DNA from: Okeania sp. KiyG1
GTDB taxonomy: Bacteria; Cyanobacteriota; Cyanobacteriia; Cyanobacteriales; Microcoleaceae
Direction: 5' to 3'
Assembly (NCBI RefSeq): GCF_014132355.1
Contig: NZ_BLZO01000198.1
Coordinates: 1-64,000, forward strand
DNA length: 64,000 nt
Below are positions 1,465 to 35,102 of the stretch, in pieces; the stretch's first letter is position 1, and each line of letters starts with the position of its first letter. Below the pieces are notes generated by a model that ran no database searches, was not told where the DNA came from, and worked only from the letters and a program-made list of their open reading frames with translations. The translations under genes were made by a program, and so were the position numbers.

Positions 1465-1465
1465 T

Positions 1466-2430: not shown

Positions 2431-2452
2431 AAGAAATAATAAATAAGAAGTA

Positions 2453-11127: not shown

Positions 11128-11138
11128 AAGTCAGGAAG

Positions 11139-11823: not shown

Positions 11824-12555
11824 ATAATCAATGGGTAAACCATAATATTCAAGAGTTGAAGTATCTTGAATAATATTTTGAGTAGAAGTATCTACTTGAA
11901 TTTGACCAGATTGCAAAATCAAAGCACGTTGAGTTACTTTAGCAACCCAGTTTAAATCATGGGAAGCAATTAATATAATTTTTACTGGTAATTGTAAGAT
12001 AATTTTAGCTAAATTTTTTCGCCATAAAGGGTCTAGACCATTAGTGGGTTCATCTAAGATTAAAATTTCTGGTTTTAATGCTAAAACAGCAGCTAAAGCA
12101 GCCAATTTTTTTTGACCTCCTGAAAGTTCATATACAGATCTATCTGCATACTTTTCTAAACCAAATTTTACTAACAAATCATTAGCAATTTCTGTAGCAA
12201 TTTCTGGAGATAAACCATAGTTAAGCGGACCAAAAGTTATATCCTCTAAAATTGTAGGCATAAACAGTTGGTCATCAGGATTTTGGAAACAAAAACCTAT
12301 TTGACGACGTACTTGAGATAAAGTTTTTTCTTCTAGGAGAATTCCTTGAATCCAAATTTCACCAGATACAGGTTTTTTTAAGCCGACCAAAGTTTCCATA
12401 AAAGTGCTTTTTCCTGTACCTGTAGGTCCTAACAAAGCGACTCTTTCTCCAGGCTTAATTGTCAATGAAAGACTCCGTAAAATCGGTTCATTTTGTGGAT
12501 ATTCAAACAATAAATCCTTAACATAGACACCAGCTTGTGGATAATCCTCTTGCAT
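11821..12555 (-). CDS. cbiO: ECF Co/Ni transporter ATPase (CbiO)
   Basis: This ABC ATPase of an energy-coupling-factor metal transporter powers Co2+ or Ni2+ uptake with CbiQ and CbiM. Visible motifs are Walker A GPTGTGKST, Q-loop FCFQNPDDQLF (the FQNPDDQ form typical of ECF A-components), signature LSGGQ, Walker B ILILDEPT and the H-loop IASHD. At 244 residues it has normal length. The ATG is one base after the cbiQ stop (TAAAATG), so the two are probably translationally coupled. The stop codon TAG is the terminal triplet of a MITE, so the original C-terminus may have differed by a few residues. Cobalt versus nickel cannot be decided from the ATPase. Confidence 0.92.
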   Translation of the reverse strand: MQEDYPQAGVYVKDLLFEYPQNEPILRSLSLTIKPGERVALLGPTGTGKSTFMETLVGLKKPVSGEIWIQGILLEEKTLSQVRRQIGFCFQNPDDQLFMPTILEDITFGPLNYGLSPEIATEIANDLLVKFGLEKYADRSVYELSGGQKKLAALAAVLALKPEILILDEPTNGLDPLWRKNLAKIILQLPVKIILIASHDLNWVAKVTQRALILQSGQIQVDTSTQNIIQDTSTLEYYGLPIDY

Positions 12556-12556
12556 T

Positions 12557-13366
12557 TTATCGATGACTAATTATTAACAGTAAAAAATATATTTCTGCAA
12601 TTACAAAACTAGCAGCAATTATTAAAGATAAGAATAGATATATTAAGTCTGGTCTATATTTAAGATTGTTTGTAGAACCAGAATATATTCTATTATTTTC
12701 ATTATGCAACACATTGCCATAACCGCGCAACAACATTGCCTGATAAACTCGTTCTGCTTGTTGATAACTTCGCACTAAAAGACTACCTGTAAGAGCAGCA
12801 TAAACTGATAAGTTTCTCCAACTAAATTTGTTTCGTTTAAAGCCTCTTAATCTAGTAGCTTTAAACATCATACTCAGTTGATTAGATATTTCAAAAATAT
12901 AACGATAAGATAACAACAGTATATCGGTAATAATGGAAGAAATTCCCAACTGCCTCATCCCTTTTATTGTTGTTAAAAATGAACTTGTACCGAATAAAAT
13001 TAAACAAGTAGTCATAATGGCAAAAAAACGACTAACAATTAATATAACTGCCAGACATCCTTCCTGGCGAATTGCCAAAAATCCGTATTGCCAAATAATT
13101 GTTTGACCAGACAAAAAAGGTAATAATACGATTACTCCTAACAAAAAAAATCCTGGATAACGTAATCGACTAATTAAAAATGATAAAGGTAGCTTTGAAA
13201 CTCCATAAAGCAGAATAGTTACTAAAAGCATTAATGGAATTAAATACCAATTTTTAACAGTAGCAAAAGCAAACATTAATGCCATTAAACCAATAAGTTT
13301 ATATCTCACATCCCACTGATGTATTGGAGAGTTTAAATTGGCATATTCATCTAGGGCAAATTTCAT
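12557..13366 (-). CDS. cbiQ: ECF Co/Ni transporter transmembrane T-component (CbiQ)
   Basis: This 269-residue inner-membrane protein transmits ATP-driven movement from CbiO to the S-component CbiM. It starts MKFALDEYANLNSPIHQWDVRYKLIGLM, the usual CbiQ opening (D-x-R-x-K before the first helix). It has five to six hydrophobic helices and the cytoplasmic coupling segment with A-T-R-L-R-G-F-K and Q-A-M-L-L-R-G-Y, which correspond to the two A-R-G motifs that dock on the ATPase. It lies directly upstream of cbiO with a one-base gap. The cbiM gene is 1.6 kb further upstream, separated by repeats, so cbiQO probably needs its own promoter. Confidence 0.92.
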   Translation of the reverse strand: MKFALDEYANLNSPIHQWDVRYKLIGLMALMFAFATVKNWYLIPLMLLVTILLYGVSKLPLSFLISRLRYPGFFLLGVIVLLPFLSGQTIIWQYGFLAIRQEGCLAVILIVSRFFAIMTTCLILFGTSSFLTTIKGMRQLGISSIITDILLLSYRYIFEISNQLSMMFKATRLRGFKRNKFSWRNLSVYAALTGSLLVRSYQQAERVYQAMLLRGYGNVLHNENNRIYSGSTNNLKYRPDLIYLFLSLIIAASFVIAEIYFLLLIISHR

Positions 13367-13484
13367 TACTATAAATAGGTGCTAGGTGTTATATTATGTC
13401 CGCTTGAATATTTATAAATAAGTAGGGGCAAAAGGCAGTTTGCTTGCTCATAACTATCGTTAACGCCCGTACAGGAGTAGGTAT

Positions 13485-13636
13485 TCATTAATTGATAATG
13501 GATAATGGATAATTGATAATTACCTCTGGTTAAAACCTAGAGGATTGAAAATAAGGAAATATTATTTCTTTTTTTTCCCCTTAAAAGGGTCGGCTTTAAA
13601 CCAGAATTATTTAATTATTAATTATTAATTATTCAG
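13485..13636. repeat. AT-rich fold-back element
   Basis: TAATGGATAATGGATAATTG and TACCTCTGGTTAAAACC lie at one end, CCCCTTAAAAGGGTCGGC and TTATTAATTATTAATT at the other. Near-copies lie at 13913-14066 and 59491-59646; inverted or longer versions lie at 15681-16062, 42063-42289, 47981-48106 and 48769-48968. Confidence 0.7.
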
Positions 13637-13912
13637 TAAGGATAATAGAGATATTTTTCCTGTGTCAGAGCATAGGTTTTTCCAAATTCCTATTATCAAA
13701 ATAATTGGGTCGCGCAACCCCACCTTTTAAGGCGAAATATTTTTGGAAAGTTGCTCACGCATCCCCTACTTCCCTCCCTCCTGGGAGGGGTTAGGGTGGG
13801 TTGGGAGGGGTTAGGGGTGGGTTAACTTCTGACTTCTGACTTCTGACTTCTGACTTAGTTAACCAGACTTGATATTAGGTAGTACATTTTCAACAATTAA
13901 TAGGACTCCTTT

Positions 13913-14066
13913 CATTAATGGATAATGGATAATGGATAATGGATAATGGATAATTACCTCTGGTTAAAACCGTTACGGAATTTAATATAAGGAAATATTA
14001 TTTCTTTTTTACCCTTGAAAGGGTCGGCTAATCAAGCTGAATAATTATTAATTATTAATTATTCGG
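13913..14066. repeat. AT-rich fold-back element
   Basis: This copy of the 13485 element has four GGATAAT units, TACCTCTGGTTAAAACCG, GGAATTTAATATAAGGAAAT and CCCTTGAAAGGGTCGGC, and ends in TTATTAATTATTCGGTAA. Confidence 0.7.
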
Positions 14067-14900
14067 TAAAAATAACCTAAACAGTTTTTTGATGGAAGCT
14101 ATATTTCACAATTTATTCCAGATAAAATTTGTACAACTGATTTTTACATAGCTCCATAATTAATTGTTACCGATAAATTATGGTCTAAAGCCTCCCTTTT
14201 TAAGGAGATAAAAAAAGAGAATATTCCATATTTTAAGCCTCCTTATTGCAAGAGGTATTGATAACTTATAACTGATAACTGATAACTGAAATGACCTCTC
14301 CTTAAAATAGATAATATTGGCATAATTGTTATTTTTCTTGATTTCTTTTTTAAAGAAGAGGGCTTAAATCTTACAGCAAATTCTAGCAAGGGAGAGGTAC
14401 ACCTAGAAGCGGGCAAGATGCTCGCACTAGAAACATTAAATTGTTAATTTATGTACTTCATAACTTCGGAAAATGCTGTAATTATTCGGTAACTTTTAAA
14501 AAATTTTCCTCACTTACCTAATACTTTATGTTAACTCTTATTTGCTGTAGACGAGAAAAGTTTACTGCTCTATCTAACACCTAACTTTGAAAGCAAAGAA
14601 ACAAATAACAAAAGAAGGAAAAATTTGTAGTTAAAAATTTGACTAACTAATAGTTATTCAAGATTAATTTGAAGGATATAGTAGTCCAAGGAAAAGCGAG
14701 GAAATATCAAAAGCTTAAAACTCAGACAATGCCAGATTTTTCTTTCTTCCTTCTATCTTCTTCCTTCTTCCTTCTGCGTATAACCTATCAAATTTCCTCC
14801 CTCACCTATTTTCCATCACGATATTTCCTAATAAGAGTTTCATATAGAATCCGGTTATAATAGCTTATATATATGTTTATAACTCTATAATTACTTCAAT

Positions 14901-14981
14901 CTCCCCTACTCCCTTACTCCCCTACTCCCTTACTCCCCTACTCCCTTACTCCCTTACTCCCCTACTTCCCTACTCCCCACC
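14901..14981. repeat. CTCCCCTACTCCCTTA minisatellite
   Basis: About eight units of CTCCCCTA / CTCCCTTA lie 19 bp beyond the cbiM stop codon. Confidence 0.75.
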
Positions 14982-14999
14982 CCCAACTATACAAAAGTT

Positions 15000-15644
15000 C
15001 TAAGAAGGTAAAAGCTCTGGCATAACTCGACGCAAAAAACTGATAATCATTGCAGTTAAAATACCTTCTATTCCCATCAAAGGAATATGAGAAATCATTA
15101 ATCCATAAATTACTCTCTGCTCTAAGACACTATCAAACCCAGAAGGTACATTTGTAATAATTATCGTAAAAAATATTAAACTAGAAACTCCAATAGCACT
15201 AGCTCCAGCAATAAATCCAAAAATACTCATAGATAAACTTTCCTTAATTCCATTTCCTAAAAGATGACGTAGCTGAAATATTTGATAAGCCAAAAGCGCA
15301 GGTATTCCCATAATTAAACCATTAATTCCTAAAGTAGTTAAACCACCATGTCCGAACATTATTGCTTGAAAAAATAGACCAACCAATATAGCTGGAAAAG
15401 CATAATAACCCAAAACAGTTCCTAACAAACCATTTAATACTAAATGAACACTAGCTGGTGGAATAGGAATATGAATACTAGAAGCTACAAAAAAAGCTGC
15501 TGTTAATAAAGAAGCTTTAGGAATGCTAGCTTGAGGATTTGGTAAACGATTAATTTGGCGTAGAGAATACCAGGTAATTAAAGAAGTAATCCCATAGCCA
15601 CTAATACAGAGTTGAGCAGGTAAAATACCTTCTGAAATGTGCAT
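15000..15644 (-). CDS. cbiM: ECF Co/Ni transporter substrate-binding membrane protein (CbiM)
   Basis: This integral-membrane S-component captures Co2+ or Ni2+. The start is placed at the ATG that gives M-H-I-S-E-G, because in this family the free amino terminus and His2 are metal ligands; a longer version from an upstream TTG would bury them. The 214 residues show helices with the conserved SSIHIPIPPASVHLVLNG loop (further metal-binding histidine) and GLFFQAIMFGHGGLTTLGIN. The C-terminal segment LQKGLM-type CbiN is absent here. cbiL-like lies upstream at 16071, and cbiQO downstream beyond a repeat block. Metal choice is unresolved. Confidence 0.92.
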   Translation of the reverse strand: MHISEGILPAQLCISGYGITSLITWYSLRQINRLPNPQASIPKASLLTAAFFVASSIHIPIPPASVHLVLNGLLGTVLGYYAFPAILVGLFFQAIMFGHGGLTTLGINGLIMGIPALLAYQIFQLRHLLGNGIKESLSMSIFGFIAGASAIGVSSLIFFTIIITNVPSGFDSVLEQRVIYGLMISHIPLMGIEGILTAMIISFLRRVMPELLPS

Positions 15645-15680
15645 TATTGAAGATTTAAAATTATCCCGATATAAGGTCAA

Positions 15681-16062
15681 ATAATAATTAATAATTAATA
15701 ATTAATAATTAATAATTAATAATTAAAGAATTCTGGTTTAAAGCCTCCCCTTTAAGGGAAAAAAGCGGTTGAGGGATGGATGGGTTTCCTAACCATATCC
15801 AATCAACCAAGACAGCGGTCGTTTTGCTTCGCATAACTACGTTAACGGCTGTCGCCGACATGTTTGCGAGCGCATTCCGCACCGAAAAAGCGCAGCTTCC
15901 CGAAGGGTGAGATGGATGGGTCTCCTGCTCTTATCAGAGCCGCTCCGCTAACGCCATATCCATGAGACCAAGAGAAGAAATAATATTTCCTTATATTCAA
16001 TTCCGTAACGGTTTTAACCAGAGGTAATTATCAATTATCAATTATCCATTATCAATTAATGA
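15681..16062. repeat. Long fold-back element with internal GC-rich inserts
   Basis: Runs of TTAATAATTAATAATTAAT lie at the left, ATTATCAATTATCCATTATC at the right. Inside are AAAGCCTCCCCTTTAAGGG, ATCCAATCAACCAAGA, and a GC-rich insert (about 15810-15960: TTCGCATAACTACGTTAACG, GAGCGCATTCCGC). It separates cbiM from the cbiL-like gene. No gene is seen. Confidence 0.65.
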
Positions 16063-23476: not shown

Positions 23477-23770
23477 TTATGCCAAACGTTCACAAACTAG
23501 AACAGTCCCCTTTTCTCCCCCTATAATGCGAAGCTCTTCATCTAAATAAAGCACTTCTAAACGACCTTTAGGCGATCGCTTCATTGTAAAAGAAATTTCT
23601 CCTGTTTCTGTATTCATACCTTGGGGTGGCACTAACCCAAACATCAACTTTAAAAATACAGACATTAATTGTTCTTTTAAACCTTTCTTTGATGATTTAT
23701 CTTGACCAAATATATCTTTCCAAATTGATAAATTTTGAGATTTTTGTGGAGTTAAAGTTCCTCCAGTCAA
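23477..23770 (-). CDS. C-terminal fragment of a PAP/fibrillin-like protein
   Basis: The frame ends SPKGRLEVLYLDEELRIIGG and EKGTVLVCERLA, which resembles the conserved C-terminus of PAP/fibrillin (plastid-lipid-associated) proteins, carotenoid- and thylakoid-associated lipocalin-like proteins. It has 97 residues from a TTG; the frame stays open a little further upstream (RYLKAYKTLQVELTGG) to a stop near 23840. Family members are about 200 residues, so the N-terminal half is missing. On the other strand a different fragment begins over the same junction. The family call is moderate; the truncation is clearer. Confidence 0.5.
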   Translation of the reverse strand: MTGGTLTPQKSQNLSIWKDIFGQDKSSKKGLKEQLMSVFLKLMFGLVPPQGMNTETGEISFTMKRSPKGRLEVLYLDEELRIIGGEKGTVLVCERLA

Positions 23771-23784
23771 TTCGACTTGTAAGG

Positions 23785-24213
23785 TTTTATAAGCTTTCAG
23801 ATATCTATTCTGAAATCTCCATCAACGGAAAATCTCAGGCATTATCTCAGTTAATCATGCAAATTCTTAGCCAAAAGCTAGACTATAAAGCTGAATACTG
23901 TGAAACCCAGGTACAGCAATCATTAGAGGTAATGACAGCTAGCCATAATAATATATATAAATCAGAGGAGGCGGCAGAAGCTAAAGGCCATATACAAAAA
24001 GCTATTCAACCTAATATTTCTGTGGGAGATTTTGTTGACCTAGATTGTGGCAAGATTTTCATCAGAATAGTTGCTATTTCTAAAGAGAAATTGAAGGGTG
24101 TTTGGGGCGCAAAAGGCATAATTGAGTTTTCGCTCTCAGAAATATGCAGAGTCAAGCAATATTTAGGGGAAAAGCATTTAGGGGAAAAATACTCATTGGT
24201 CTGGGAACGCTGA
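23785..24213 (+). pseudogene. Fragment of an unknown protein
   Basis: The frame reads about FYKLSDIYSEISINGKSQAL, then SQLIMQILSQKLDYKAEYCE, SVGDFVDLDCGKIFIRIVAI and a C-terminus EFSLSEICRVKQYLGEKHLG to a stop at 24213. No plausible start exists; the first in-frame ATG after the junction (23857) is inside a helix. The 5' part was probably lost where this piece abuts the PAP-like fragment. An 11-residue near-repeat (LGEKHLGEKY) is seen near the end. I do not recognise a family. Confidence 0.4.
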
Positions 24214-24288
24214 TATTTTCTGCTTGAATATTTGGACAAACTTGAATCTTATGAAAGATTCAAGAGTTCTTTACTGGCCAATTTATTG

Positions 24289-24458
24289 ACATTTTTTGAT
24301 TGTCCAGCTTGATACGCTTTTTGATACGCTTTTTGATACGCTTTTTTATCCATTTTTCGTCCATTTGCTATCTAAAGAAGGCTGAAAGCTCGGAAACTCG
24401 TTATCTTTCTAGTAAGCGGGTAGGGGGAATCGAACCCCCATCATTAGCTTGGAAGGCT
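24289..24458. repeat. Left attachment-site repeat (attL) with 3' part of tRNA-Gly
   Basis: This segment matches 34896-35075. It contains ATTGTCCAG, three tandem GATACGCTTTTT units (24311-24346), CCATTTTTCGTCCATTTGC, GAAGGCTGAAAGCTCGGAAA and, at 24416-24458, the last 43 nt of tRNA-Gly(UCC) on the minus strand. Sequence identity ends exactly inside the anticodon stem. It marks the left border of the integrated element. Confidence 0.9.
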
Positions 24459-24586
24459 CTATATTCATTCATTTCTGTTGCTGCTATTGCGTTGTTCTGA
24501 TGGTTAAGTTTTTTTAAACTGATAAATTTCATACACACTTTAATACTCATTTCTTGTTTCCTTTAAGAAAGAGCTTTAAATGTTTT

Positions 24587-25780
24587 ATGAATGAAAAACA
24601 AGTCCATTTATTGGGGATGGCCAAAGTTGAGTCTTTTCAAAATCGCTTAAGAGTTCGCTTTCCTCGTAGCTTGTTTGGTGGTCAGCAAAAAACTCTTGCT
24701 TTGGGACTTCCAGATTTACCTAAGTATCGTGCGATCGCTGAGGCTAAAATTGAGGCGATTAATTCTGATATTGCTCTGGACCAGTTTGATTTTACGTTGG
24801 ACCGTTACAGGCCACAACATAGACAGAAGTTGCATTTGGTTAGGGCTGAGGAGTTTAAGTCTCAAGTTTCTCTGCTGGAATTGTGGGATAAATATTATGA
24901 GTATGGGTTGCCTAAGTGGAAGGAAAGCACCCAAGTTTACTTAAAGACTTCAATTAGGCGATGGTTGGAGAAGGCTGAGGTTCAAATTGATTCTGTGGAT
25001 AAGGCGCTGGAGTTGAGAAATTTTTTGTTGTCTCATACTTCTGAGTCTATGACTAAGCGGGTGTTGACTTGGATTAATGCTGCTTTTAATTGGGGGTTAA
25101 AGCGGAAGTTGGTGGGGGGTGAAAATCCTTATGAGGGGATGGCTAATGAGTTGAGGCACAATTACCAGAAGACTACGACTCCTTTGGCTTTTACTTCGGC
25201 GCAGAAGTTGACAATTTTGGATAATTTTGCTAACCACAAGGGAAATTGGAATGGTCGTGGTGTAACTGGGAAGGGTTATTGTCATTATTTCCCGTTGGTG
25301 AAGTTTTGGTTTTTGACTGGGTGTCGTCCTAGTGAGGGGATTGGGTTGACTTGGGGGGCGATCGAGTCTAATTATCGGTTTCTGTTGTTTGCTGGTGGGG
25401 CGGTGCAGTTGGTGTCGGGTCGGACTGTGAGTACCAATAGCAGTAAAAATAATAAGGTGAGGCGGTTTCCGATTAATGAGGAGTTGAGGGAGTTGCTGAT
25501 AGGGATTAGACCTGAGTCTCCGGAGCCATTGGATTTGGTTTTTCCTAGTTTGACTGGCAAGGTGATTAGCTACAACAATTTTTGCCACAATGCTTGGCGA
25601 CGGATGGTTTGTGAGTCTGTTAAGAAGTCCACGCCTTACTCATGCCGGGACACTTTTATTACTGAGCAGTTGAGTAAGGGCGTTAGTTCTACGATTATTG
25701 CTAAGTGGTGCGATACTTCGGTGAAGATGATTGAGACTCACTATTTTGATTCTAGTGTGATTAATATTTTGCCTCTTTGA
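24587..25780 (+). CDS. Tyrosine integrase (site-specific recombinase)
   Basis: The protein probably catalyses integration at tRNA-Gly. The N-terminal arm-binding region has RLRVRFPRSLFGG and TLALGLPD; the core-binding region follows (about 90-190). The catalytic domain shows TGCRPSEG (Arg I), KNNKVRRFP (Lys) and TPYSCRDTFIT (Arg II, with Tyr in the place of the usual His). The third box has KWCDTS instead of L-G-H-S, and the nucleophile lies in ETHYFD. Missing histidines are seen in some active integrases. Start choice: ATG at 24587; a TTG at 24554 and an ATG at 24620 (after GGGG) are alternatives. It lies 130 bp from attL, as expected for an integrase. Confidence 0.9.
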   Translation: MNEKQVHLLGMAKVESFQNRLRVRFPRSLFGGQQKTLALGLPDLPKYRAIAEAKIEAINSDIALDQFDFTLDRYRPQHRQKLHLVRAEEFKSQVSLLELWDKYYEYGLPKWKESTQVYLKTSIRRWLEKAEVQIDSVDKALELRNFLLSHTSESMTKRVLTWINAAFNWGLKRKLVGGENPYEGMANELRHNYQKTTTPLAFTSAQKLTILDNFANHKGNWNGRGVTGKGYCHYFPLVKFWFLTGCRPSEGIGLTWGAIESNYRFLLFAGGAVQLVSGRTVSTNSSKNNKVRRFPINEELRELLIGIRPESPEPLDLVFPSLTGKVISYNNFCHNAWRRMVCESVKKSTPYSCRDTFITEQLSKGVSSTIIAKWCDTSVKMIETHYFDSSVINILPL

Positions 25781-25871
25781 AGTTGTTGAAAAGTTGAGGC
25801 GATCGCCTCTATTATTTTGTAGTTTTGCGTGGTTTTAGGATTCACGAACCTCTAAGGGGTTTGTGCAGTTT

Positions 25872-27470
25872 TTGACATACTCCCGACGCTCCCCTACGGG
25901 AGAGCGCGGGATTCTTCAGCCAGAGAAAAACTGACCGCAGTTTTAACAGAAGTGATGTCCTCCTCCTGTGTTGAAAACAATCCTATTTTTTGTATTAGGA
26001 GTGCTGAGTTATAGTCTCTGTCTAATTCCTGTCCACATTTAGCACAGGAATGCCAGCGTTCTGATAAACTTTTAGAGACTTTATTCAGACATTTCCAACA
26101 ATGTTGGGATGTACCTTTTGGGTCTACTTTGATAATTTTTTGCCTAGTTTCCAGGCTACATACTCCAAAACCTGAACAAACTGCCCAAAAGCTGCATCTT
26201 GCAAAGATTTATTTAATCCTGACTTAGCTGATTGACCATTGGGCAAAAACTGACCATTATCACCCAATTTAGCTTTGCAACGTCTGATTAAATTTGCTAT
26301 TTGCAGGTCTTCTAAAAATATCACCTGACAGTCACTAAATAAATGATAAGCCAGTTTGAATTGCCAATCCAAACGTTGTCTAGCTATTAATTGATGCAGT
26401 CTAGATATTTTACCTTTGAGAATTTTCCAACTCTTTGAATGTTTGTGTTTTTTAGCTAATCTCGCCTGAAGTTTAGACAAGCGATGCTCAGAACACCTGA
26501 AAAACTTCGGGACTTCTATAAATTCACCATCACTGGTAACAGCATAGTACAATAATCCTAAATCAATACCTTTTGAGTTATCTTCGGTGGGTTGAATTTC
26601 TGCACGCCTCAAAGGTACAGCTTGATCTTCTATCGTTAAGCTGATATACCATCCATCTGCCGCCCGTATCACTGTACCTGTTTTCACCTTGAATCCTATT
26701 GGTATTGAACGATTGTAGACAAAGGGGACTAAACCAATCTTTGGTAGATTTATACAAAAACGACCGTTGGCATTTTTGACTATGTTGGCATTTGATAGCT
26801 GAGGATAACTGAAAGAATTATAATAATGCCGACCTTTAAATTTAGGTCTACCACTGGTTTTACCCTTGTGATCAGGTTTGGTAAAGTTATCCATTGTTGT
26901 TTGCACACGCTGGATAACATCTTGCAACACCTGAGAGTGCATCAACTTATACTCAGGGAAAAGTTTTTAGTCCGTGCTAAATCTGCTAGTTGAACAGTCT
27001 CCCAAACAACATATCCATTAACTGTGTTCGGATGCTTATCTCCTTTCCTTGTTATCGGATTACCAAAAATGTCCTTTTTTCTACCATCTCGTGTTTGTAC
27101 CCTAAATTCAGGGATATTCTGATAAATCTGGTCTACTGGCACCACTGAAACATTAAGAGGACAAGCATTTACTGGTGTGCGTGTTGCTTCAAACCAGTTT
27201 AGCCTTTCAGCTAAACGGTAATTATATTGCTTTCTGGCCATTTCTAACCAATTGGCTATAATTACCGTTTGACTTTTATGGGGTTTTAGCTTGTACTTGT
27301 ATTTCAGTAACATGGCAGAATCTACCAGGATTTCTATATTAGTTATTATAATGGCTATGTTAGAAATTTTCAATAGCTATAGCAAACAGGATCTTATGAA
27401 AACCACACACCCTGGCCCGGCTCTCATCCCGACGCTCCCCTACGGGAGAGCGCGGGACTTCCCGCCGGGG
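25872..27470 (-). mobile_element. IS200/IS605-type insertion within the integrated element
   Basis: The 3' end is GACATACTCCCGACGCTCCC; the sequence CCCGACGCTCCCCTACGGGA occurs at both ends in the same orientation (25883 and 27428), each able to form a CTCCCCTACGGGAG hairpin. Only tnpB lies between. The insertion is younger than, or nested in, the plasmid-like element. Confidence 0.65.
25894..27373 (-). pseudogene. tnpB pseudogene B
   Basis: This is a TnpB of about 480 codons in three frames. 27373-26942 gives the N-terminus (YKYKLKPHKSQTVIIANWLE, ending LADLARTKNF). A one-base shift in a T run near 26960 leads to FPEYKLMHSQVLQ and the central part (26945-26124) with RuvC-I KGIDLGLLYYAV and RuvC-II VIFLEDLQIANL. 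A second shift in an A run near 26130 leads to the zinc ribbon C-W-K-C...C-A-K-C and RuvC-III LDRDYNSALL, ending with TAG at 25894-25896 inside the terminal hairpin. All catalytic acidic residues are kept, so inactivation looks recent. Confidence 0.85.
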
Positions 27471-27487
27471 AAGTTAACGCCTACTTT

Positions 27488-27778
27488 TTACAGGTGTTTA
27501 GTTCCATTGAATCCTATGTCCACATAGGGGGTTGATTGAAACTCAATACTAGGGGATGAGTGAGCTATTGGGTTAGTAAAAGATGCGTTTGGTAATGGGG
27601 GCATTGGCGTACTTGGCATATAAGCATTTGCATAGTAGGTCAAGATACGTCTAATCAACTCGTTTAAAGGGATGCTTTGCTGTGCTGCAATGACTTTCAA
27701 TTTGTAGTGAATTGTGGGGTCTAGTTTAGTTCCTACTTCTTTTCCAGGTGGCTTTAGTTGTTGCTTTTTTCGTTTCAT
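27488..27778 (-). CDS. Ribbon-helix-helix (CopG/Arc-like) protein
   Basis: The 96-residue product has KKQQLKPPGKEVG followed by the RHH core T-K-L-D-P-T-I-H-Y-K-L-K-V-I-A-A-Q-Q and IPLNELIRRILTYY: a short basic strand and two helices, as in CopG, ParG and Arc. The C-terminal 45 residues are Pro/Ser-rich and probably disordered. On plasmids such proteins control copy number or partition and bind iterated operators. Here a 114-bp repeat with tandem 12-bp units begins 46 bp upstream of the start codon and is repeated once more further out; autoregulation or partition-site binding is inferred. Confidence 0.7.
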   Translation of the reverse strand: MKRKKQQLKPPGKEVGTKLDPTIHYKLKVIAAQQSIPLNELIRRILTYYANAYMPSTPMPPLPNASFTNPIAHSSPSIEFQSTPYVDIGFNGTKHL

Positions 27779-27823
27779 ATATTTTGGGCAATGCTACAAG
27801 TCTTATTGTGACTTCTAATTCTA

Positions 27824-27937
27824 ATAGTGTCCATTTTTCTTGAAGCTACCAAACTCCTACTGGAAGGTGAGGTGTATAGTGGGGTGTCTAGTGACTACTG
27901 TACACCTTACTAGACAGCAACTGTTTTTAGTATTAGC
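27824..27937. repeat. 114-bp direct repeat with 12-bp iterons, copy 1
   Basis: It starts ATAGTGTCCATTTTTCTTGA and ends AGTATTAGC. In the middle are tandem near-copies AGGTGTATAGTG and GGGTGTCTAGTG. It lies in the upstream region of the RHH gene. Copy 2 is at 28242-28355 with the same length and order. Confidence 0.85.
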
Positions 27938-28241
27938 TGCAACACATTTTTGATTATCTAAGAACTGGAAGTGGGAGAATTTTCCATTTGGGAAGTTTAG
28001 AGTGGTAGTTAAAGGTAACTTAAGAGTGCTAGTAGTAATGATTTGTAATGTCTCTGAGAAAAGAATAATCAAAAAATCCTTGTAGCCCCCATTGGCTCGT
28101 AATTTATGGAAGAATCACTGCGAGAGCTTCTTACCTTCTTATGGAGTGCTGATAAGAATGAATTTTCATTTTATAGTCACCAAACAAGGTAGTAGGAGTG
28201 ACTAGGGGTAATATTTTTACCCAAAAAAAAAGGAGTAAGGT

Positions 28242-28355
28242 ATAGTGTCCATTTTTTTTGAAGTTATCAAGCTCCTGTTGGAAGGTGAGGTGTGTAGTGG
28301 GGTGTCTAGTGGCTACTGTAAGCCTCACTACACAGTAACTGTTTCTGGTATTAGC
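28242..28355. repeat. 114-bp direct repeat with 12-bp iterons, copy 2
   Basis: It begins ATAGTGTCCATTTTTTTTGA and carries AGGTGTGTAGTG and GGGTGTCTAGTG, ending GGTATTAGC followed by GATCGC. Substitutions relative to copy 1 are scattered, so the duplication is not recent. Short minus-strand frames across both copies look like by-products. Confidence 0.85.
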
Positions 28356-28434
28356 GATCGCTCCTACTCAGTTTCTAACTTAGTGAGATAGTCTTGTCCC
28401 TCTCTTCTGGTAAGTTTTTTAGACTATATATTTA

Positions 28435-28575
28435 ATGTCCGTTTTTTGTGAGAATATTTGGCACGGAATTGTCCTTGATGATTATCCTTCACATAAAATC
28501 AAAAGGGATGGCCTTTCTCGATTGGCAGCTAAACTATACTATTTCTTCTTATTGATTTGGGTATGTCCTAGCTAG
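28435..28575 (+). CDS. Possible 46-residue small protein
   Basis: The ATG-started frame MSVFCENIWHGIVLDDYPSH continues with KIKRDGLSRLAAKLYYFFLL and IWVCPS. It has a hydrophobic C-terminal half. No ribosome-binding site is obvious and I recognise no family. It is listed because it is the only plausible frame in the gap between the iteron repeats and 29240; it may be spurious. Confidence 0.2.
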   Translation: MSVFCENIWHGIVLDDYPSHKIKRDGLSRLAAKLYYFFLLIWVCPS

Positions 28576-29239
28576 TTCTTAGAGCGTATTTTAATAAGCT
28601 GCAAGATTAATTAAATTTTTTGATAAAAGAGTAAGGGTTAACCCTTTATAGGTAAAACCACATCATACTTCCACAGCCTATACATGATTGTGTTGACTGA
28701 TTGAATTTGCCAAGGCTTTAAAGTAATTTATGAGTTACTACCACTTTGATTTTAAATTGTCAAATCTGTATCAAATGGCCTGTTTCTCAAGCAAAGGTTC
28801 TGTATTGAGTGTGAGCTTTGAGGGGCAACAACTAGGTCAACTATATTGAATAAGCGATCGCTTATACTTATGAGATGCTACACAAGTCTGAGAAGTAAAA
28901 TTACTTCCACTCAGGACTTCCACTACCATTTCCCAGTAATTTTCAGCTAGTTAATTTTGGAAGTTGGTAAAAGTGGAAGTAGGGAAGTTTTTCAACTTTT
29001 TGTGATGGAAGATGTGTTACATCTAAAACGTCAAGTTTATCTGATATTGCATTAAGCTTTTTGTGGCCTACCTTAAATATCAAATCTGGTCAACAGACTT
29101 GACACCCGATCGCCAACCTGTTAGATTAGCTACATCAACGAAAAAGGCTTTTAAAAAAAGCGGACTAATCAGGTGCTGGAAACACCCAATTAGCCCTAGC
29201 CCCAAAAGTTGACGATACCAACTCAAGAGGATAATAGAG
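28576..29239. other. Non-coding gap within the integrated element
   Basis: I see no gene. Features are GATCGCTTATACTTATGAG, a GTGCTGGAAACACC hairpin near 29171, and TTGACACCCGATCGCC at about 29098, which may be part of a promoter for the gene at 29240. It could hold a replication origin. Confidence 0.4.
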
Positions 29240-29779
29240 ATGCTATCTCACAATAATTCTGCGCGTCAAGGTAAAAGACGTGCTAAACGGCTTTTGGTTA
29301 AAGAAGCTCGTGCCAAAGCACCAGAATTTAAGCGCTATAGAAAATTTCAGCGTAACTTATCTTTACCTGATGGGTTCCCATCACCACGTTTCAAATTTGG
29401 GGACTTCGTTAGGACAAATGAAGGAGATGAGGGACAAGTAGTAGGAATGAGTTTATACCGACGTGGCTTGGATGAATATTGGTGGAACTATGAGCTGGAC
29501 CTTTGCATTGAGTCTCCCAACTTCCAGCTTTACCAATGTGAAGAAATAGTCAGTCGAGAATTCTCATATCCTGGGTGGGATAGTCCTGCCTGCAACAATT
29601 GGCATGAATGGCAGCTTACCTTGGTGAAAAGATGTAGTAATCGTATTTGTTTAACAAATCAATTGTTTGATGAAATGTTTAGAAAATGTGTTGATATTCA
29701 GCAAGCTAAACACAACGCAAATTGTAATCATCAGTTGTTTTATGCAGCTTCTCAGCTTTCTGTGAAATCCTGGAAGTAA
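29240..29779 (+). CDS. Unknown protein of the integrated element
   Basis: This 179-residue protein starts with ATG after AAGAGGATAATAGAG, a good ribosome-binding site. The first 50 residues are strongly basic (RQGKRRAKRLLVKEARAKAP, FKRYRKFQRN). Next comes a segment with SH3-like character, PRFKFGDFVRTNEGDEGQVV followed by YWWNYELDL, then a Cys/Trp-containing region (YPGWDSPACNNWHEWQLTLV, KRCSNRICLTN). Basic charge and position suggest nucleic-acid binding, but I know no family for it. A strong terminator follows 20 bp after the stop, so it is probably a single transcription unit. Confidence 0.65.
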   Translation: MLSHNNSARQGKRRAKRLLVKEARAKAPEFKRYRKFQRNLSLPDGFPSPRFKFGDFVRTNEGDEGQVVGMSLYRRGLDEYWWNYELDLCIESPNFQLYQCEEIVSREFSYPGWDSPACNNWHEWQLTLVKRCSNRICLTNQLFDEMFRKCVDIQQAKHNANCNHQLFYAASQLSVKSWK

Positions 29780-29799
29780 TTTTAGATTAGTTTTTGATA

Positions 29800-29829
29800 C
29801 GTCAACTTTAATTAGTTGACGTTTTTTTT
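29800..29829 (+). terminator. Rho-independent terminator
   Basis: The stem CGTCAACT / AGTTGACG with loop TTAATT is followed by eight Ts. It closes the 29240-29779 gene and separates it from the recombinase at 29856. Confidence 0.9.
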
Positions 29830-29855
29830 GTACTATTACATGAGAGAAAGAAGGA

Positions 29856-30890
29856 ATGTCTTTTAAATCATACAAAGAGATATTTTTAGAGATAGAGGAA
29901 CAATATTTCAACGGAGTTCATAAGAACAGTAAGCGCAGGCGAAGCCGTAACAATATAAGTGATAATAATTCTTATAATCGCACTAATAAAGTCTATTTTG
30001 ATAAGATTTTAAATCAAAATGAGTGTCCAACATTAGACTCGTTAAAAAGTGCTTTATATAGCTGGACTCCTGGCACAAAATCGTTCAAGAATGCCTATTA
30101 CATTTATAAAAAGATAGCTTCAAAAGCTACCAACAGTCAAGAATTAATCAGGCTTTTTGATGGCATTGACACTATTCAAACTATATTTCAAGAGAAACAA
30201 AGCATTTCTTGGAATGAGTTTTACAATTGGCACAATAAATGCAGTCAAGACTGTCAAGAATGTGATGAACCGTGGTTATGGGTATGTGCTATGTGTGTTA
30301 CTTATGGGTTAAGACCTTCTGAAATTGCAGCAGCACAAAATCTTTTTAAATCTTGGTCTCGGCGCAATACTACTATCAAAGCTATCAACAATCCTAGCAA
30401 CAAAGATATGTTATTGGTAGTTGGAGAATTTACATATTTTGGTACATCTACTAAAACAGGGGCAAGAATCGCTCGTCCTTTAATACTTAACCAAAATATT
30501 TGGGATGAATTAAGGTTAAAACAGCCAAAATTACCAGTAATAAATAGCAATTCAACTAATTCTAAAACACTTGTAAATTTATTCTCTGGCCGATTTAGGA
30601 AGGCGCTGATAAGAATGAATTGTCCCATAACTCAACCTTATGCTTTTCGACATTTGGCTAATCAATTGGGTGAAAAGTATGGTGTACCTCAAGAGATAAG
30701 GGCTAGGTCATTGGGACATTCTGTGGCCGTTAATGATAGTGTTTATAAATCTCGGTCAAATCTAGAGACGGAGGTTGATTTACTACTAAACTTTTCAAAA
30801 TCATATTCAAATGGACAAGAGTTTAGTCCATTTGATTTTGATATGGCTGTGGAGAAAATTAAAAGTATTAAAGCTATTTTGGAAGCTTGA
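29856..30890 (+). CDS. Second tyrosine-recombinase-like protein
   Basis: The 344-residue product has a catalytic fold: VTYGLRPSEIAAA (Arg I), FGTSTKTGARIARPL (Lys), QPYAFRHLANQLG (Arg II, with Tyr in place of His), RARSLGHSVAV (His III) and a tyrosine in SVYKSRSN. The N-terminal part is basic (SKRRRSRNNISD). It differs strongly from the integrase at 24587 and may act in resolution, excision or partition rather than tRNA integration. Like that integrase it has Y-x-x-R in box II. Its start (ATG) follows GAGAGAAAGAAGGA. Confidence 0.75.
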   Translation: MSFKSYKEIFLEIEEQYFNGVHKNSKRRRSRNNISDNNSYNRTNKVYFDKILNQNECPTLDSLKSALYSWTPGTKSFKNAYYIYKKIASKATNSQELIRLFDGIDTIQTIFQEKQSISWNEFYNWHNKCSQDCQECDEPWLWVCAMCVTYGLRPSEIAAAQNLFKSWSRRNTTIKAINNPSNKDMLLVVGEFTYFGTSTKTGARIARPLILNQNIWDELRLKQPKLPVINSNSTNSKTLVNLFSGRFRKALIRMNCPITQPYAFRHLANQLGEKYGVPQEIRARSLGHSVAVNDSVYKSRSNLETEVDLLLNFSKSYSNGQEFSPFDFDMAVEKIKSIKAILEA

Positions 30891-31464
30891 CATAGTTACC
30901 ATTTGCTGCTTTTGAGGGGGATGCTGATCAAACTTGTCAATGTCAAGATTTTATCAGGGGTAAATTTCAAACTCCACACGTTTAACCCTTGTACACTGAC
31001 TTGTACACTGACAAGTCTTCTTAAAATCCAGAAGCTTTATAGCGACTAGATTGCACCTGTCTAGTATGTCTATACTACAGCTTACTGCTGACAATTAGAT
31101 GCTTTCACTCTTAAAAATCAGTTAATATCAGCGATGTAATCCTGTTAAGATTCAACGCAATGGTAGTAAGATACTTTTCCTAACGGTAGCAAGGTTCTAA
31201 TTTAATTATCAAAAAAAATTTGCTTCCTTGGTGCGATTAGAGTTATGATTACAGTGTGTACCCAAAAAAAATGCTCGGCTACCAACCGAGCGTTAGAAAA
31301 TTCCAATTTAAAAACCCAATAAACAAAATATTGCCTATTGAGGTTCAATATTTATATCTTCTCATTTATAGTAGGAAAACGCAACATTGTAGTGTAATGT
31401 CTGAAGTAATTATTTAGAGAGAAGTTTAACGGTTTATTGGGTTCATAGCTCAAAGATAAAAACT
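30891..31464. other. Region upstream of the replication gene; possible control region
   Basis: No gene is seen. A tandem CTTGTACACTGA pair lies at 30988-31011. A GCTCGG/CCGAGC hairpin lies at about 31273. A long-range inverted repeat, ACCCAATAAAC at about 31313 and GTTTATTGGGT at about 31431, brackets 110 bp just before the CyRepA1 start. Together these suit operators or an origin; activity is inference. Confidence 0.45.
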
Positions 31465-34400
31465 ATGAACCACTACGATTTAGAAGATGGAAACTATAAT
31501 AATACATCCTCTCATAATTATAACACTAATAGTAATTCTCACCATAATCAGGACAATAATGGTACAAGTCCCCAAAACTATCTAGAAGATAGTGGGCTGA
31601 ATATTTCCCCCTACCATCGACAAGAATTTCACAAAAGTTTTGTCGATGATGAATTAATAAATCTCAACGTCCGCTCTATTGAAGGGTTTGAAGCGCAACA
31701 GCTTTACTTTAGCTATTGGGACGGCGATCGCCTTAACAACGGCGCTCCTGCTGGTAGATTATTGGAAAAAACAAACCATCTTTTGCATGGTTGTTGGTAT
31801 ATTTTTATAGTCACAGAATTAGGTTTAGTCCCACACTTCAAACCAGACAAGCCTAGAATAACTGACGACAGAAAGATTAAATATGAACAGATAAAAGGTT
31901 CAAGAAATGGTATTTTTCTGCCTAAGATAACTTATGGTCATGTAAAGTTGATTGCTGAAAGATTTAAAGTTAAAAACTATCCCCAAGGTGAGCTAAATGC
32001 TTACTGTGAGAAAGCTTGGAACTGGATAGCTGCTAACAAAAAAATCACGATTGCAATTACTGAAGGCTGGAAGAAAACAATGGCTTTAATGTCTGTTGGA
32101 ATTCCAGCTATCGGACTCTCTGGAGTCTGGAACTTCAATAACTCCAGTAATGATAAAACATTAATCCCTACTTTCTATAAGTTCAAGGGTCATAATTTCT
32201 GTTTTTATTATGATAATGACAGTAAACCTAAAACTATTAAGCATGTAAATACTGCAATCATAAGGTTATCAACTGCTCTTCTAAAAGAAAGAATAGCAAA
32301 AGCAACTTATAGATGTCATTGGTCATCGACATCATCCAAAGGGATTGATGATTATTTATATGACCATGATGGTGATGAACAACATCTACTATATGAACCT
32401 ATAACCTATGGCGAGAAGTCCGAGAAAATTGCTTCTGACTTGGTTGTGAATGTTCAATATTTGACCAACGAAAATCTAGAAGCAATCCCAGAAGTAAAAA
32501 AGGTGATAGCAGAAAACAGAATCATCCTTATGAAATCAGCAAAAGGGTGTGGCAAAACAGAAGTGATAGCAGATTATATTTATGAATGTCAGCAGTCTGG
32601 AACTAAAACGCTAGCACCAATTCATAGAGTGCAACTTATGACTGAACTTTCTGGGCGCTTTGGAATTGCGAACGCTAATAACTATATGAAATCACTAGAT
32701 AAAGTATTTGGATTAGCAGTTTGTACCGATTCCATGCACGCAAACAGCAAGACTAAATTCAATCCTGATCATTTCAATGATAGCATTGTCGTAATAGATG
32801 AAATTGAGCAGGTACTTTGGCACACTGCAACAGCAAAAACGGAAGTAAGAAAACATCGTCCTGAAGTAATCAATAATGTCATCAAACTAATACAAAATGC
32901 TGGAAAATTTATTGGTAGTGATGCCGACCTTTCAGCAGCGACAGTAGACTTGATAACTGAAATCACAGGTCAAAAACCTTTCGTCATTGAAAATAAATAC
33001 AAGCAAAAAGACGGGCACTGCATGATATATACTCAAGGCAGCCCATACAAAATTCTTGAGGATTTCTTAAAAGAAGCAGACAAAGGTAAAAACTTAATGC
33101 TTTTTGTAACAGGTCAGAAAGCATCTTCATTATTTAGTTCTATTAATATGGAGACAATGCTTAAAGCACGATATCCAGATGAGAAGATAATGAGAGTTGA
33201 TGCAGAAACTGTTGCCGACCCTGAACGACCTGAGTACGAGTTTTTTAAAGATTTTGATGGTAATGTAGATAAACATAAACCAAGTATTTTAATTTGTACT
33301 CCTGTTATGGAGACGGGGATAAATGCAAAAACAAAACACTTTGATAGCTTCTGGGGACTTAATTGGGGAAATTTAACTGTTGACTCTTTCTCTCAAGCAG
33401 CGGGTAGGATTAGAGAGAAGATACCAAGATATATATGGAGTTCAAATCGACCATTAAATGTTGCAGGGAATGGTTCATGTTTTGCTTCACAACTAATTGC
33501 AAGTGCCAAGCAACAGCATGAACTAAATAAAGCTGTTATCAGCTATAAAACCAATCGTGGTGCTGACGACTTTGAAGTGTTTTCAAATGATAGCATTTTA
33601 AGATATTGGGCAAAGAAAGGCGCGATAATAAATGCGCAAGGAAAAGTGTTAAGGGAATCAGTGATAGCAAAATTTGCTAGCGACTATGAACATCTCAGTA
33701 TCAACGATGAAGTGGTAGCAAAAAATGTAAAGATGGAAATATCTAGCTTACTAAAGACTACTAGAGAAGCTAATATGAACGAATTTTACTCTGATGTTAT
33801 TGCTGCCGAATATGTAGGTGATATCACTTTTGATAAGTTGAGCAGTCAGAAAGAAAAGAACTATCAACAAAGATGCTGTGAAAGAAAAAATAAAACTATT
33901 AGAAAACTGTCTCCAGTGTCAAGAAAATCTGAACTATCTCCAGAAATTTTAGAGGCTGAAGACCGTGGAGACTTTTATCATATAATGCTTCACTGGCTAT
34001 TGATTCAAGGATTAGAAATTGCTAGCAATATAGATGCTGAAAGACATCAGAAAGGTGAGTTTATTTTAGACAGCAATAGCAAGGTATCTTCTTCAAAGAT
34101 TTTTTACTTTGAACAATTTGGCATTCAAGAAATAATAAATAACCCAGATAATGAATATTCTAATAGTCACCCATTAATCAAAAAAGTAGGGGCAAATATT
34201 AGAGCTGGTTTTAACCATCTTAGAGAATTAAAAGTTAGTATTCGTGACTTATGGAGCTTGGGTGGGCTAATTTTTGAATCAACTGATTGGGTATTAGTTA
34301 AATGGTGCTTGAGGCTTTTGGGTTTTGATATGAGACAAAGTCGCCGGACTGGTAAAAAACGATACTACTACCTAGTAGATAAAAGCAAGTGCCCCAGAGA

Positions 34401-34674
34401 AAAAATTACAAAATATTGGGATGAATATATTCCAGCTCCCAGAGAAGTCCAACAACTCAAACTACCAGATATAGAAGTAGGTGATTTGGTCGGAGCCAAA
34501 ATCAACGATCGCTTTTTTGATATGTGCCAAGTCCTGGAAAAGATAGGGGACAAATTAAAAGTTTGTTGGGGTCTAGTAGATAAAAAAATTTTTGAACTTG
34601 GCCAAGACGTTGTTTGTAAGCTTTGGAAAAGGGGGCCAGACGGGGTGTATCCCGCATGGTCTCTCAACTCGTGA
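31465..34674 (+). CDS. CyRepA1-type plasmid replication protein (DUF3854 + SF2 helicase)
   Basis: This 1069-residue protein has the layout of cyanobacterial CyRepA1 plasmid initiators. After an Asn/His-rich, disordered N-terminus (1-55), residues about 75-300 match the DUF3854 Toprim-like region: YFSYWDGDRLNNGAPAGR, IAITEGWKKTMALMSVGIPA with E200, FYYDNDSKP with D250. A helicase part follows with Walker A ILMKSAKGCGKTEVIAD (about 354-370), Walker B IVVIDEIEQVLW (D445, E446), ILICTPVMETGIN and SQAAGRIREKIPRYI (motifs V and VI). The C-terminal about 100 residues have an SH3-like WGLVDKKIFELGQDVV segment. It probably melts or primes an origin. It is the main evidence that the 24.3-35.1 kb insert was a plasmid. 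Confidence 0.85.
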   Translation: MNHYDLEDGNYNNTSSHNYNTNSNSHHNQDNNGTSPQNYLEDSGLNISPYHRQEFHKSFVDDELINLNVRSIEGFEAQQLYFSYWDGDRLNNGAPAGRLLEKTNHLLHGCWYIFIVTELGLVPHFKPDKPRITDDRKIKYEQIKGSRNGIFLPKITYGHVKLIAERFKVKNYPQGELNAYCEKAWNWIAANKKITIAITEGWKKTMALMSVGIPAIGLSGVWNFNNSSNDKTLIPTFYKFKGHNFCFYYDNDSKPKTIKHVNTAIIRLSTALLKERIAKATYRCHWSSTSSKGIDDYLYDHDGDEQHLLYEPITYGEKSEKIASDLVVNVQYLTNENLEAIPEVKKVIAENRIILMKSAKGCGKTEVIADYIYECQQSGTKTLAPIHRVQLMTELSGRFGIANANNYMKSLDKVFGLAVCTDSMHANSKTKFNPDHFNDSIVVIDEIEQVLWHTATAKTEVRKHRPEVINNVIKLIQNAGKFIGSDADLSAATVDLITEITGQKPFVIENKYKQKDGHCMIYTQGSPYKILEDFLKEADKGKNLMLFVTGQKASSLFSSINMETMLKARYPDEKIMRVDAETVADPERPEYEFFKDFDGNVDKHKPSILICTPVMETGINAKTKHFDSFWGLNWGNLTVDSFSQAAGRIREKIPRYIWSSNRPLNVAGNGSCFASQLIASAKQQHELNKAVISYKTNRGADDFEVFSNDSILRYWAKKGAIINAQGKVLRESVIAKFASDYEHLSINDEVVAKNVKMEISSLLKTTREANMNEFYSDVIAAEYVGDITFDKLSSQKEKNYQQRCCERKNKTIRKLSPVSRKSELSPEILEAEDRGDFYHIMLHWLLIQGLEIASNIDAERHQKGEFILDSNSKVSSSKIFYFEQFGIQEIINNPDNEYSNSHPLIKKVGANIRAGFNHLRELKVSIRDLWSLGGLIFESTDWVLVKWCLRLLGFDMRQSRRTGKKRYYYLVDKSKCPREKITKYWDEYIPAPREVQQLKLPDIEVGDLVGAKINDRFFDMCQVLEKIGDKLKVCWGLVDKKIFELGQDVVCKLWKRGPDGVYPAWSLNS

Positions 34675-34895
34675 TTTTGGCTTTCAGAATAAACTTGTGT
34701 TTTTTTTGTTGACTATACATTCAATATAAATCTCTGTAACTCTTTATTAGTAATAGTTTTAGACATTTATACATTTTCCAGTTGAAAGTTGTACATTTTT
34801 CAAGCTTCAACTACTTTCAGTTTTTATGGAGATTATCCTAAAATCCTGGCCTTAGTGTGACTAAATTTATGTTTATATCTAACTTGTAATTAGTC

Positions 34896-35075
34896 ACATT
34901 TTTGATTGTCCAGATTCATACTCAATTCATACTCAATTCATACTCATTTCTATATAGATTTTTGTCCATTTTTCGTCCATTTGCTATCTAAAAGAAGGCT
35001 GAAAGCTCGGAAACTCGTTATCTTTCTAGTAAGCGGGTAGGGGGAATCGAACCCCCATCATTAGCTTGGAAGGCT
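34896..35075. repeat. Right attachment-site repeat (attR)
   Basis: This matches 24289-24458: ATTGTCCAG, three tandem ATTCATACTCA units (34914-34946) where the left copy has GATACGCTTTTT units, CCATTTTTCGTCCATTTGC, GAAGGCTGAAAGCTCGG, then the tRNA-Gly 3' half. Beyond 35075 the tRNA continues intact, so the functional gene is restored at this end. Confidence 0.9.
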
Positions 35076-35102
35076 AAGGTTTTACCACTAAACTATACCC
35101 GC
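35032..35102 (-). tRNA. tRNA-Gly(UCC)
   Basis: The 71-nt cloverleaf has acceptor GCGGGTA/TACCCGC, D-arm TAGTTTAGTGGTAAAAC, anticodon loop CTTCCAA (anticodon UCC) on stem TTAGC/GCTAA, and T-arm GGGGGTTCGATTCCCCC. No CCA is encoded. It is the integration target of the adjacent element; its 3' 43 nt are duplicated at 24416-24458. Confidence 0.97.

Follow-up and report, generated by a model that had tools for sequence, protein, structure and literature searches.

Integrative plasmids of tRNA genes are known from phyla other than the cyanobacteria, among them the 11.2 kb site-specific integrative plasmid pHS87b of Pseudomonas aeruginosa (PMC4739549) and the actinomycete integrative and conjugative elements (AICEs; PMC3218068). 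In cyanobacteria, CyRepA1 is needed to keep the plasmid pSYSA free, deletion of its gene having led to fusion of pSYSA with other replicons, and pSYSA also carries another putative integrase, slr7005 (PMC9978351); CyRepA genes have in addition been found on the chromosomes of 80 of 145 cyanobacteria, where their role was said to need 'further validation' (PMC10899382). Here we describe an element of about 10.6 kb inserted in a tRNA-Gly(UCC) gene of Okeania sp. KiyG1, located in a stretch of 64,000 nucleotides (hereafter the window) on contig C198 (NZ_BLZO01000198.1) of the 11.0 Mb draft genome, and we compare it with 291 genomes of the order, 62 of the family and six of the genus. We regard the element as probably an integrative plasmid, a reading based on an open integrase gene (Int) beside the left attachment site (attL), a tRNA core shared by both ends, an empty site in relatives, and a complete, plasmid-type CyRepA1 gene. 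The initial annotation had further suggested that a plasmid family residing in tRNA genes of filamentous cyanobacteria would be a new class if other copies exist; a new class is not supported, because integrative plasmids in tRNA genes were already known in other phyla (PMC4739549, PMC3218068).

The target gene, tRNA-Gly(UCC) (35032..35102, reverse strand; Rfam tRNA, 76 bits), is intact at the right end of the element, where it is overlapped by attR (34991..35075), an exact 85-bp repeat of attL (24374..24458) that contains, at 24415-24458, a displaced copy of the 3' 44 nt of the tRNA. The two sites are 100% identical over these 85 bp and lie 10,617 bp apart from core to core; the longest exact match in 200 single-base shuffles was at most 14 bp, and a tRNA-end pattern with an expected count of 0.00 in the window was found there two times. 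With weaker similarity that extends outwards (24283-24458 versus 34890-35075), the repeat comes to 176 bp at 84% identity, so that the repeats of 170-180 bp bracketing about 10.6 kb described initially are borne out, except that the tRNA end measures 44 and not 43 nt. The shared core corresponds to the 3' half of tRNA-Gly(UCC), starting at the anticodon loop, and in the three tRNA-Gly elements for which both ends are available (the window and the genomes G281 and G308) the tRNA identity ends 1, 0 and 0 bases past GGAAGGC; in the genomes G285 and G119, att halves that agree in extent to within 1-2 bases occur, and the stretch read contains no tRNA belonging to them. Next to attR lie 11-bp repeats (ATTCATACTCA, 3.4 copies, 34914..34950), and just inside attL two diverged copies of a like motif (24528..24551), both of which are likely arm sites of the integrase. 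Such tandem repeats had been taken for replication iterons, an interpretation that we rejected for the clear copies of 11-12 bp at 34914-34950 and 24309-24346, because they adjoin the att sites and repeats of sister elements are placed likewise; what is left of the iteron claim concerns a tandem pair of CTTGTACACTGA upstream of cyRepA1 (30988..31011) and a 114-bp repeat at 27824 and 28242.

As initially described, the first gene inside the element encodes a tyrosine integrase with an intact frame next to attL (Int; 24554..25780, forward strand; 408 amino acids from a TTG), which contains the Pfam domains PF00589 and Arm-DNA-bind_2. An in-frame ATG at 24587 fits better as the start and is preferred because most alignments with homologues begin near residue 20. 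The residues R258, K298, R365, W385 and Y397 are near-invariant among 40 Int open reading frames (ORFs), the window included. Matches to Int occur in 126 of the 291 genomes of the order at E <= 1e-20 and, at E <= 1e-50, in 16 of the 62 family genomes (22 matches in total).

That the site exists empty follows from the alignment of the two flanks, joined by script, which run without interruption through the corresponding region of the congeneric genomes G293 (827 columns, 85%) and G294 (412 columns, 80%) and, for a shorter distance, G291 (282 columns, 83%, the left part contributing only about 60 bases); a clean empty tRNA-Gly site is thus present in relatives. Okeania sp. SIO2B3 (G250) has a broken copy of the element on two contigs, one with a piece of Int and an att half, the other with Orf179 (an ORF of the window element described below), the second recombinase Rec2, the tail of CyRepA1, attR and the tRNA; we infer that the two contigs are parts of one element. 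The genus thus contains another copy in degraded form; for the matches listed, Int and CyRepA1 together are intact in the window alone among the 62 family genomes.

The site appears to have a longer history. Outside the element, to the left of attL, lies a probable relic ORF (23626..24213, forward strand), conserved from about residue 41-56 on, followed by what resembles the right arm of an older element (24283..24373), including three copies of TTGATACGCTTT at 24309-24346. ORFs like the left one occur in G293 and on both G250 contigs, and in G250 the frame continues the CyRepA1 tail and scores E 3.9e-6 with a CyRepA1 profile built without the window clade; with the same profile, the G293 form alone reaches only E ~0.02 and the window's own frame gives no score, the pairwise comparison of the latter with the window CyRepA1 yielding 5e-4. 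We therefore interpret the left ORF as probably a CyRepA1 tail, the link running through G250, where its counterpart follows that tail, and for this reason rejected its identification as a host gene. Next to the tRNA of G294, a short segment shows residual similarity to the tail ORF (32%, E 6e-4), although the CyRepA1 profile does not find it. Thus the left flank is probably the tail of an older element of this kind and not plain host DNA, and the tRNA-Gly gene has probably received insertions on two or more occasions. Among the six genomes of the genus, one has an intact element, one a broken element and two a tail or a piece, and in one (G291) no tail was detected; in the sixth (G292) the contig ends 0.8 kb from the tRNA, so the state of the site is unreadable there. 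On this contig (L135, G292:C26, 1-778), the sequence begins to resemble the window at the tRNA-Gly 3' end; the 0.8 kb beyond the tRNA have no match to the window flanks and are perhaps the end of another insertion.

The replication protein (31465..34674, forward strand; 1069 amino acids) consists of a DUF3854 and an SF2-type helicase part, and its designation as a CyRepA1-type initiator in the initial annotation is confirmed by NCBIfam NF042913 (294.5 bits against a cut-off of 200). DUF3854 scored 100 bits (cut-off 23), ResIII and Helicase_C remained just under their cut-offs (21.2/22.5 and 19.4/23.5), and phrog_4913, annotated as 'replication', matched at 9.4e-29. The protein matches 196 plasmid records, the best of them covering most of its length. 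In a tree of 41 CyRepA1 proteins, the window protein and three copies from contigs of 6.3, 14.1 and 11.7 kb formed a group (100/100), well separated from the pSYSA and pAQ1 proteins and from an 18-row clade (100/100) to which all 10 rows labelled as chromosomal belong. The 6.3 kb contig (L106) has a 127-bp terminal overlap and therefore reads as a closed circle of 6.2 kb, while no terminal overlap was found on the 14.1 and 11.7 kb contigs. The branches are long and the program warns of long-branch joins and odd composition for the window clade, which leaves the deep position of this clade unsure and its membership unaffected. The occurrence of the clade otherwise on small contigs supports the view of the window gene as plasmid-type, and suggests that its nearest kin are small, apparently extrachromosomal replicons of Okeania. 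As a general rule, 'CyRepA1 means plasmid' had to be rejected: contrary to the initial statement, CyRepA1 proteins are not plasmid initiators only, as 206 of the 291 order genomes match at E <= 1e-20 and a chromosomal clade exists.

Further CyRepA1 genes deserve mention. The KiyG1 genome has another homologue on contig C75 (L118, G000:C75:60001-80000, 9671-12714), which falls into two frames at about 11.5 kb of that locus and is 59-60% identical to L082, a row of the chromosomal clade, versus 28-30% to the window protein. A genome of 1.44 Mb (L084, G275:C1) has retained a single CyRepA1-like gene, which belongs to the chromosomal clade; its retention in a very small genome suggests a host function for the chromosomal lineage. 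The 14.1 kb contig with a CyRepA1 gene, from Okeania sp. SIO2B3 (L103, G250:C56, NODE_149, 1-14121), also encodes a Zot/pI-like ATPase (phrog_197, 3.4e-6; M13 protein I, 3.3e-4) as well as several short ORFs that look membrane-like, and is perhaps an inovirus-like plasmid or a cyanobacterial filamentous phage.

The presence of a second tyrosine recombinase inside the element was supported in part. Rec2 (29856..30890, forward strand; 344 amino acids) is tyrosine-recombinase-like by a PHROG integrase match (E 2.2e-5) and by its catalytic residues, R153, K200, R265, H288 and Y297 being invariant and H266 nearly so among 18 sequences, but it has no Pfam or NCBIfam match. Across the same 18 family members, the PHROG integrase family was matched by five and the Pfam integrase model by none (E <= 0.01); the family profile had no match in PDB, AlphaFold2 on Rec2 alone gave a mean pLDDT of 41.6, and comparison with Int by hhalign (probability 0.65%, no significant score) counts against the recombinase call. 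Relatives occur at E <= 1e-8 in 53 of the 291 order genomes, and none was found in the plasmid records. Rec2 lacks the N-terminal domain of about 100 amino acids of its long homologues and may be called arm-less: among 29 other Rec2 ORFs read, 23 have 431-496 amino acids, with the extra domain in those aligned, and the remaining six have 288-374 and may be cut or broken. The short form is common to the G250 relic, in comparison with which the ratio of nonsynonymous to synonymous substitution (dN/dS) is 0.17-0.20 (237 codons in two parts), a value derived from few differences and from a partner that is broken; a recent truncation is therefore unlikely, and the ratio suggests that Rec2 has been under selection in its short form.

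The remainder of the element contains few recognisable genes. An insertion of IS200/IS605 type (25881..27457, reverse strand), identified by ORFs, repeats and Pfam, is bounded by 31-bp direct repeats and carries a tnpB gene broken in two frames (26124-26945 and 26942-27373); when six window proteins were submitted to PADLOC, only a TnpB piece was matched, as Cas12-like, for which we take the kinship of TnpB and Cas12 as the reason. It is followed by an RHH (ribbon-helix-helix)-type protein of 96 amino acids (27488..27778, reverse strand), for which the initial designation was matched weakly (HicB, E 0.0016, below the Pfam cut-off) and which is a candidate excisionase, copy control or partition factor; like that of Rec2, this call is weak. 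The adjoining 1.46 kb (27779..29239) are mostly non-coding, include the 114-bp direct repeat (27824-27937 and 28242-28355, 87%), and constitute a candidate origin or centromere. Orf179 (29240..29779, forward strand) was assigned no function by the Pfam scan, has no match in plasmid records, and in comparison with the SIO2B3 relic shows a dN/dS of 0.21 (90 codons), subject to the same reservation as that of Rec2. Among the 15 inner ORFs of at least 70 amino acids, Pfam (15 of 15) and PHROGs (13 of 15) revealed no capsid, terminase, packaging or transfer gene, in agreement with the initial annotation, and Pfam neither an FtsK/SpoIIIE-type Tra domain nor any recognisable host-type cargo.

To place the integrase in its family, we read 25 Int neighbourhoods, including the window. 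Both att ends were found in at least seven, in genes for tRNA-Gly (window, G281, G308), tRNA-Arg (G109, G075, G043) and tRNA-Pro (G137); this number is a lower bound because many Int loci lie at contig ends and because, for 11 loci scanned as new neighbourhoods, the search for att ends was confined to those with a complete tRNA. The att-to-att segments of G137 and G043 are short (2.8 and 1.8 kb), and the elements in which a replication gene was seen measure 7.1-10.6 kb and lie in genes for tRNA-Gly and tRNA-Arg. Four sister elements (G281, G308, G109, G075; 7.1-10.1 kb) resemble that of the window in having the same integrase family, arm-like short repeats at their att sites (in G281 and G075, by the count applied, not at both ends), a tRNA-Gly or tRNA-Arg target and one large replication protein; they differ in the nature of the latter, which is of DUF5906, DUF3987 or DUF3854 + D5 type versus CyRepA1 in the window. 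All nine replication proteins scanned from Int-family neighbourhoods contain a primase- or helicase-type domain, as which we take DUF5906 and DUF3987, and four of the nine combine DUF3854 with D5. The nearest long match to Int, a broken gene in G285 (71% in the N-terminal, 82% in the C-terminal part), neighbours a protein of this last type. Outside the window, none of the 21 Int matches (E <= 1e-50) in the 62 family genomes shares a contig with CyRepA1 (E <= 1e-40, among the matches listed). Since the Int family otherwise occurs with primase- or helicase-type genes, and the nearest Int with DUF3854 + D5, the element is best seen as having arisen by the joining of an Int/tRNA module to a CyRepA1 replicon.

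Some of these neighbourhoods are of interest in themselves. In L113 (G109:C176:18001-38000, 1418-15783), two Int + DUF3854-D5 elements are arranged in tandem at tRNA-Arg(UCU) with a period of 7,112 bp, and a stretch of 766 bp is 100% identical between them. Primases of the DUF3854 + D5 kind lie beside Int-family genes in L110, L113, L166 and L105. Cyanobacterial proteins of this kind are among the best hits of ORF531 of fern plastomes (PMC6220310), and the elements may conceivably be linked to mobile ORFs in the plastids of ferns. In L117 (G119:C2:296001-316000), proteins that look phage-like by eye lie beside an Int-family gene and a tRNA-Gly half, perhaps representing a prophage at the same site.

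The initial description of the element as an integrated, plasmid-like unit is thus upheld by the empty site, the small-contig clade of its CyRepA1 and the degraded congeneric copy. If it still moves, Int and a directionality factor, perhaps the RHH-type protein, would recombine attL with attR, releasing a circle of 10.6 kb and leaving tRNA-Gly whole; CyRepA1 would replicate the circle, as does the CyRepA1 of pSYSA, and Int would reinsert it. Rec2 may resolve multimers of the circle or may be a leftover integrase, and since no transfer or capsid gene was found, spread would require outside help by mobilisation, phage or uptake. Several observations weigh against an active integrative plasmid. 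No circular form was seen, a search of the assembled genome having found neither a further copy of the att-tRNA region nor one of this CyRepA1, and no excisionase has been firmly identified. The 62 family genomes hold no second intact Int + CyRepA1 element among the matches listed, and an Int- or Rec2-type gene was found in none of 20 CyRepA1 neighbourhoods, which were hand-picked from the order-wide matches and thus non-random (three on contigs of 28-124 kb) and scanned with our own Int and Rec2 profiles only. The link between the two G250 contigs is presumed; the left neighbourhood differs from G293 and G250 beyond about 23.7 kb, and a search of the window with the kinase gene of these two genomes, taken from G293, was negative. 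The compared genomes are mostly drafts, and the three named relatives are metagenome-assembled genomes.

A former integrative plasmid, now fixed, decaying and unable to excise or replicate, would fit equally well with the broken TnpB insertion, the occurrence of one copy only, and the degraded relics in other genomes (Int, Rec2 and CyRepA1 broken in G250, only tails in G293 and G294). We consider this main rival rather unlikely, as Int, Rec2 and CyRepA1 are all open in the window, the first two with conserved catalytic residues, and the 85-bp repeats are still identical. Also unlikely is a composite of nested or fused islands, one dependent on Rec2 and one on Int, with Rec2 as a dead-end leftover: the greater length of most Rec2 homologues and the tRNA read within a few kb at six of 30 Rec2 loci (window 29856-30890; L043-L071), one of them tRNA-Gly(UCC) (L048), would agree with it, but the short Rec2 behind Orf179 is common to the G250 relic and apparently selected in that form, and no inner att pair was seen in the repeat search. 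A satellite or prophage remnant packaged by a helper phage is improbable. Its integrase family is common to the apparent prophage of G119, Int is distantly related (26-28%) to four cyanophage records, 17 phage records show weak matches to the helicase portion of CyRepA1 (less than one third covered in the ten listed), and proteins resembling P4-type primases are encoded by sister elements (phrog primases; TIGR01613 with 72.5 bits, under the cut-off of 108.7); none of the inner ORFs scanned, however, matched a capsid, terminase or packaging family, IMG/VR yielded nothing related to Int, CyRepA1 or Rec2 in pattern scans, and 196 plasmid records match CyRepA1, the best of them along most of the protein. 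That CyRepA1 is an ordinary chromosomal homologue that merely lies in an island can be practically dismissed, widespread as such genes are in the order and on chromosomes, because the window protein falls outside the clade with all chromosomal rows and inside the small-contig clade, and the genome has its separate homologue on C75.

Taking the element as an integrative plasmid, a broader proposal can be made tentatively, and we think it possible but somewhat short of likely in its entirety: a group of small cyanobacterial integrative plasmids, as yet undescribed, would share one Int family and the targets tRNA-Gly(UCC) and tRNA-Arg(UCU) and freely swap their replication genes (D5/DUF5906, DUF3987, Prim-Pol, DUF3854-D5 or CyRepA1), the window representing the CyRepA1 branch, in which an arm-less Rec2, of a family without a Pfam model, acts as resolvase and one tRNA gene has been occupied repeatedly within a genus. 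If this were true, some of the 'chromosomal CyRepA' genes that lack an explanation would be integrated plasmids and not host genes. The case distinguishes two kinds of CyRepA, one of a chromosomal lineage that is apparently inherited, the other a plasmid gene that entered by way of a tRNA-specific integrase. It also suggests that integrative plasmids of cyanobacteria originate when an integration module is combined with differing replication modules. To our knowledge, there are few genetic tools for marine filamentous cyanobacteria, for which the element offers an integrase with a defined attB.

Among described systems, pHS87b is similar in size, in the integrase beside the att site and in a core formed by a tRNA 3' end (45-bp in pHS87b), and a TOPRIM-domain protein suggested as its replication factor may be counted as a further likeness; it differs in its tRNA-Thr target, its P4-type integrase and its phage-related genes, including a capsid protein, and no CyRepA1 figures in its description (PMC4739549). 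Its circle was observed at about twice the abundance of the integrated form (PMC4739549), whereas the Okeania element is known from sequence alone. AICEs such as pSAM2 likewise combine a tyrosine integrase, a tRNA 3' end, an internal replication initiator and tandem insertions at one site, but they are defined with an FtsK-like Tra protein, of which none was found among the inner ORFs scanned, and use RepSA, RepAM or Prim-Pol versus CyRepA1 (PMC3218068). Tycheposons of Prochlorococcus share the tyrosine recombinase and the tRNA gene at the border, but are large cargo-carrying transposons of 4-200 kb, (PMC10872708), in contrast to a plasmid initiator and no recognisable host cargo in the Okeania element, where Orf179 has no assigned function. 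The plasmid records contain only three distant matches to Int. In pMIC7113.06 of Allocoleopsis franciscana (28.8 kb), a related integrase (25%) lies beside a DUF3854 protein, but this plasmid is a larger, free circle with ParM, and a simple pattern scan found no tRNA-like end in the 19.2 kb read. With pSYSA and pAQ1 the element shares the CyRepA1 family, comprising DUF3854 and a helicase part (PMC10079941, PMC9978351), at 27-30% identity to the window protein; both are free replicons, and their records have no match to the window Int. No CyRepA1 element in a tRNA gene was found in literature titles and abstract openings, a search outside which most subscription literature lies. New here is the combination of Int and CyRepA1, which among the 62 family genomes, for the matches listed, is intact only in the window.

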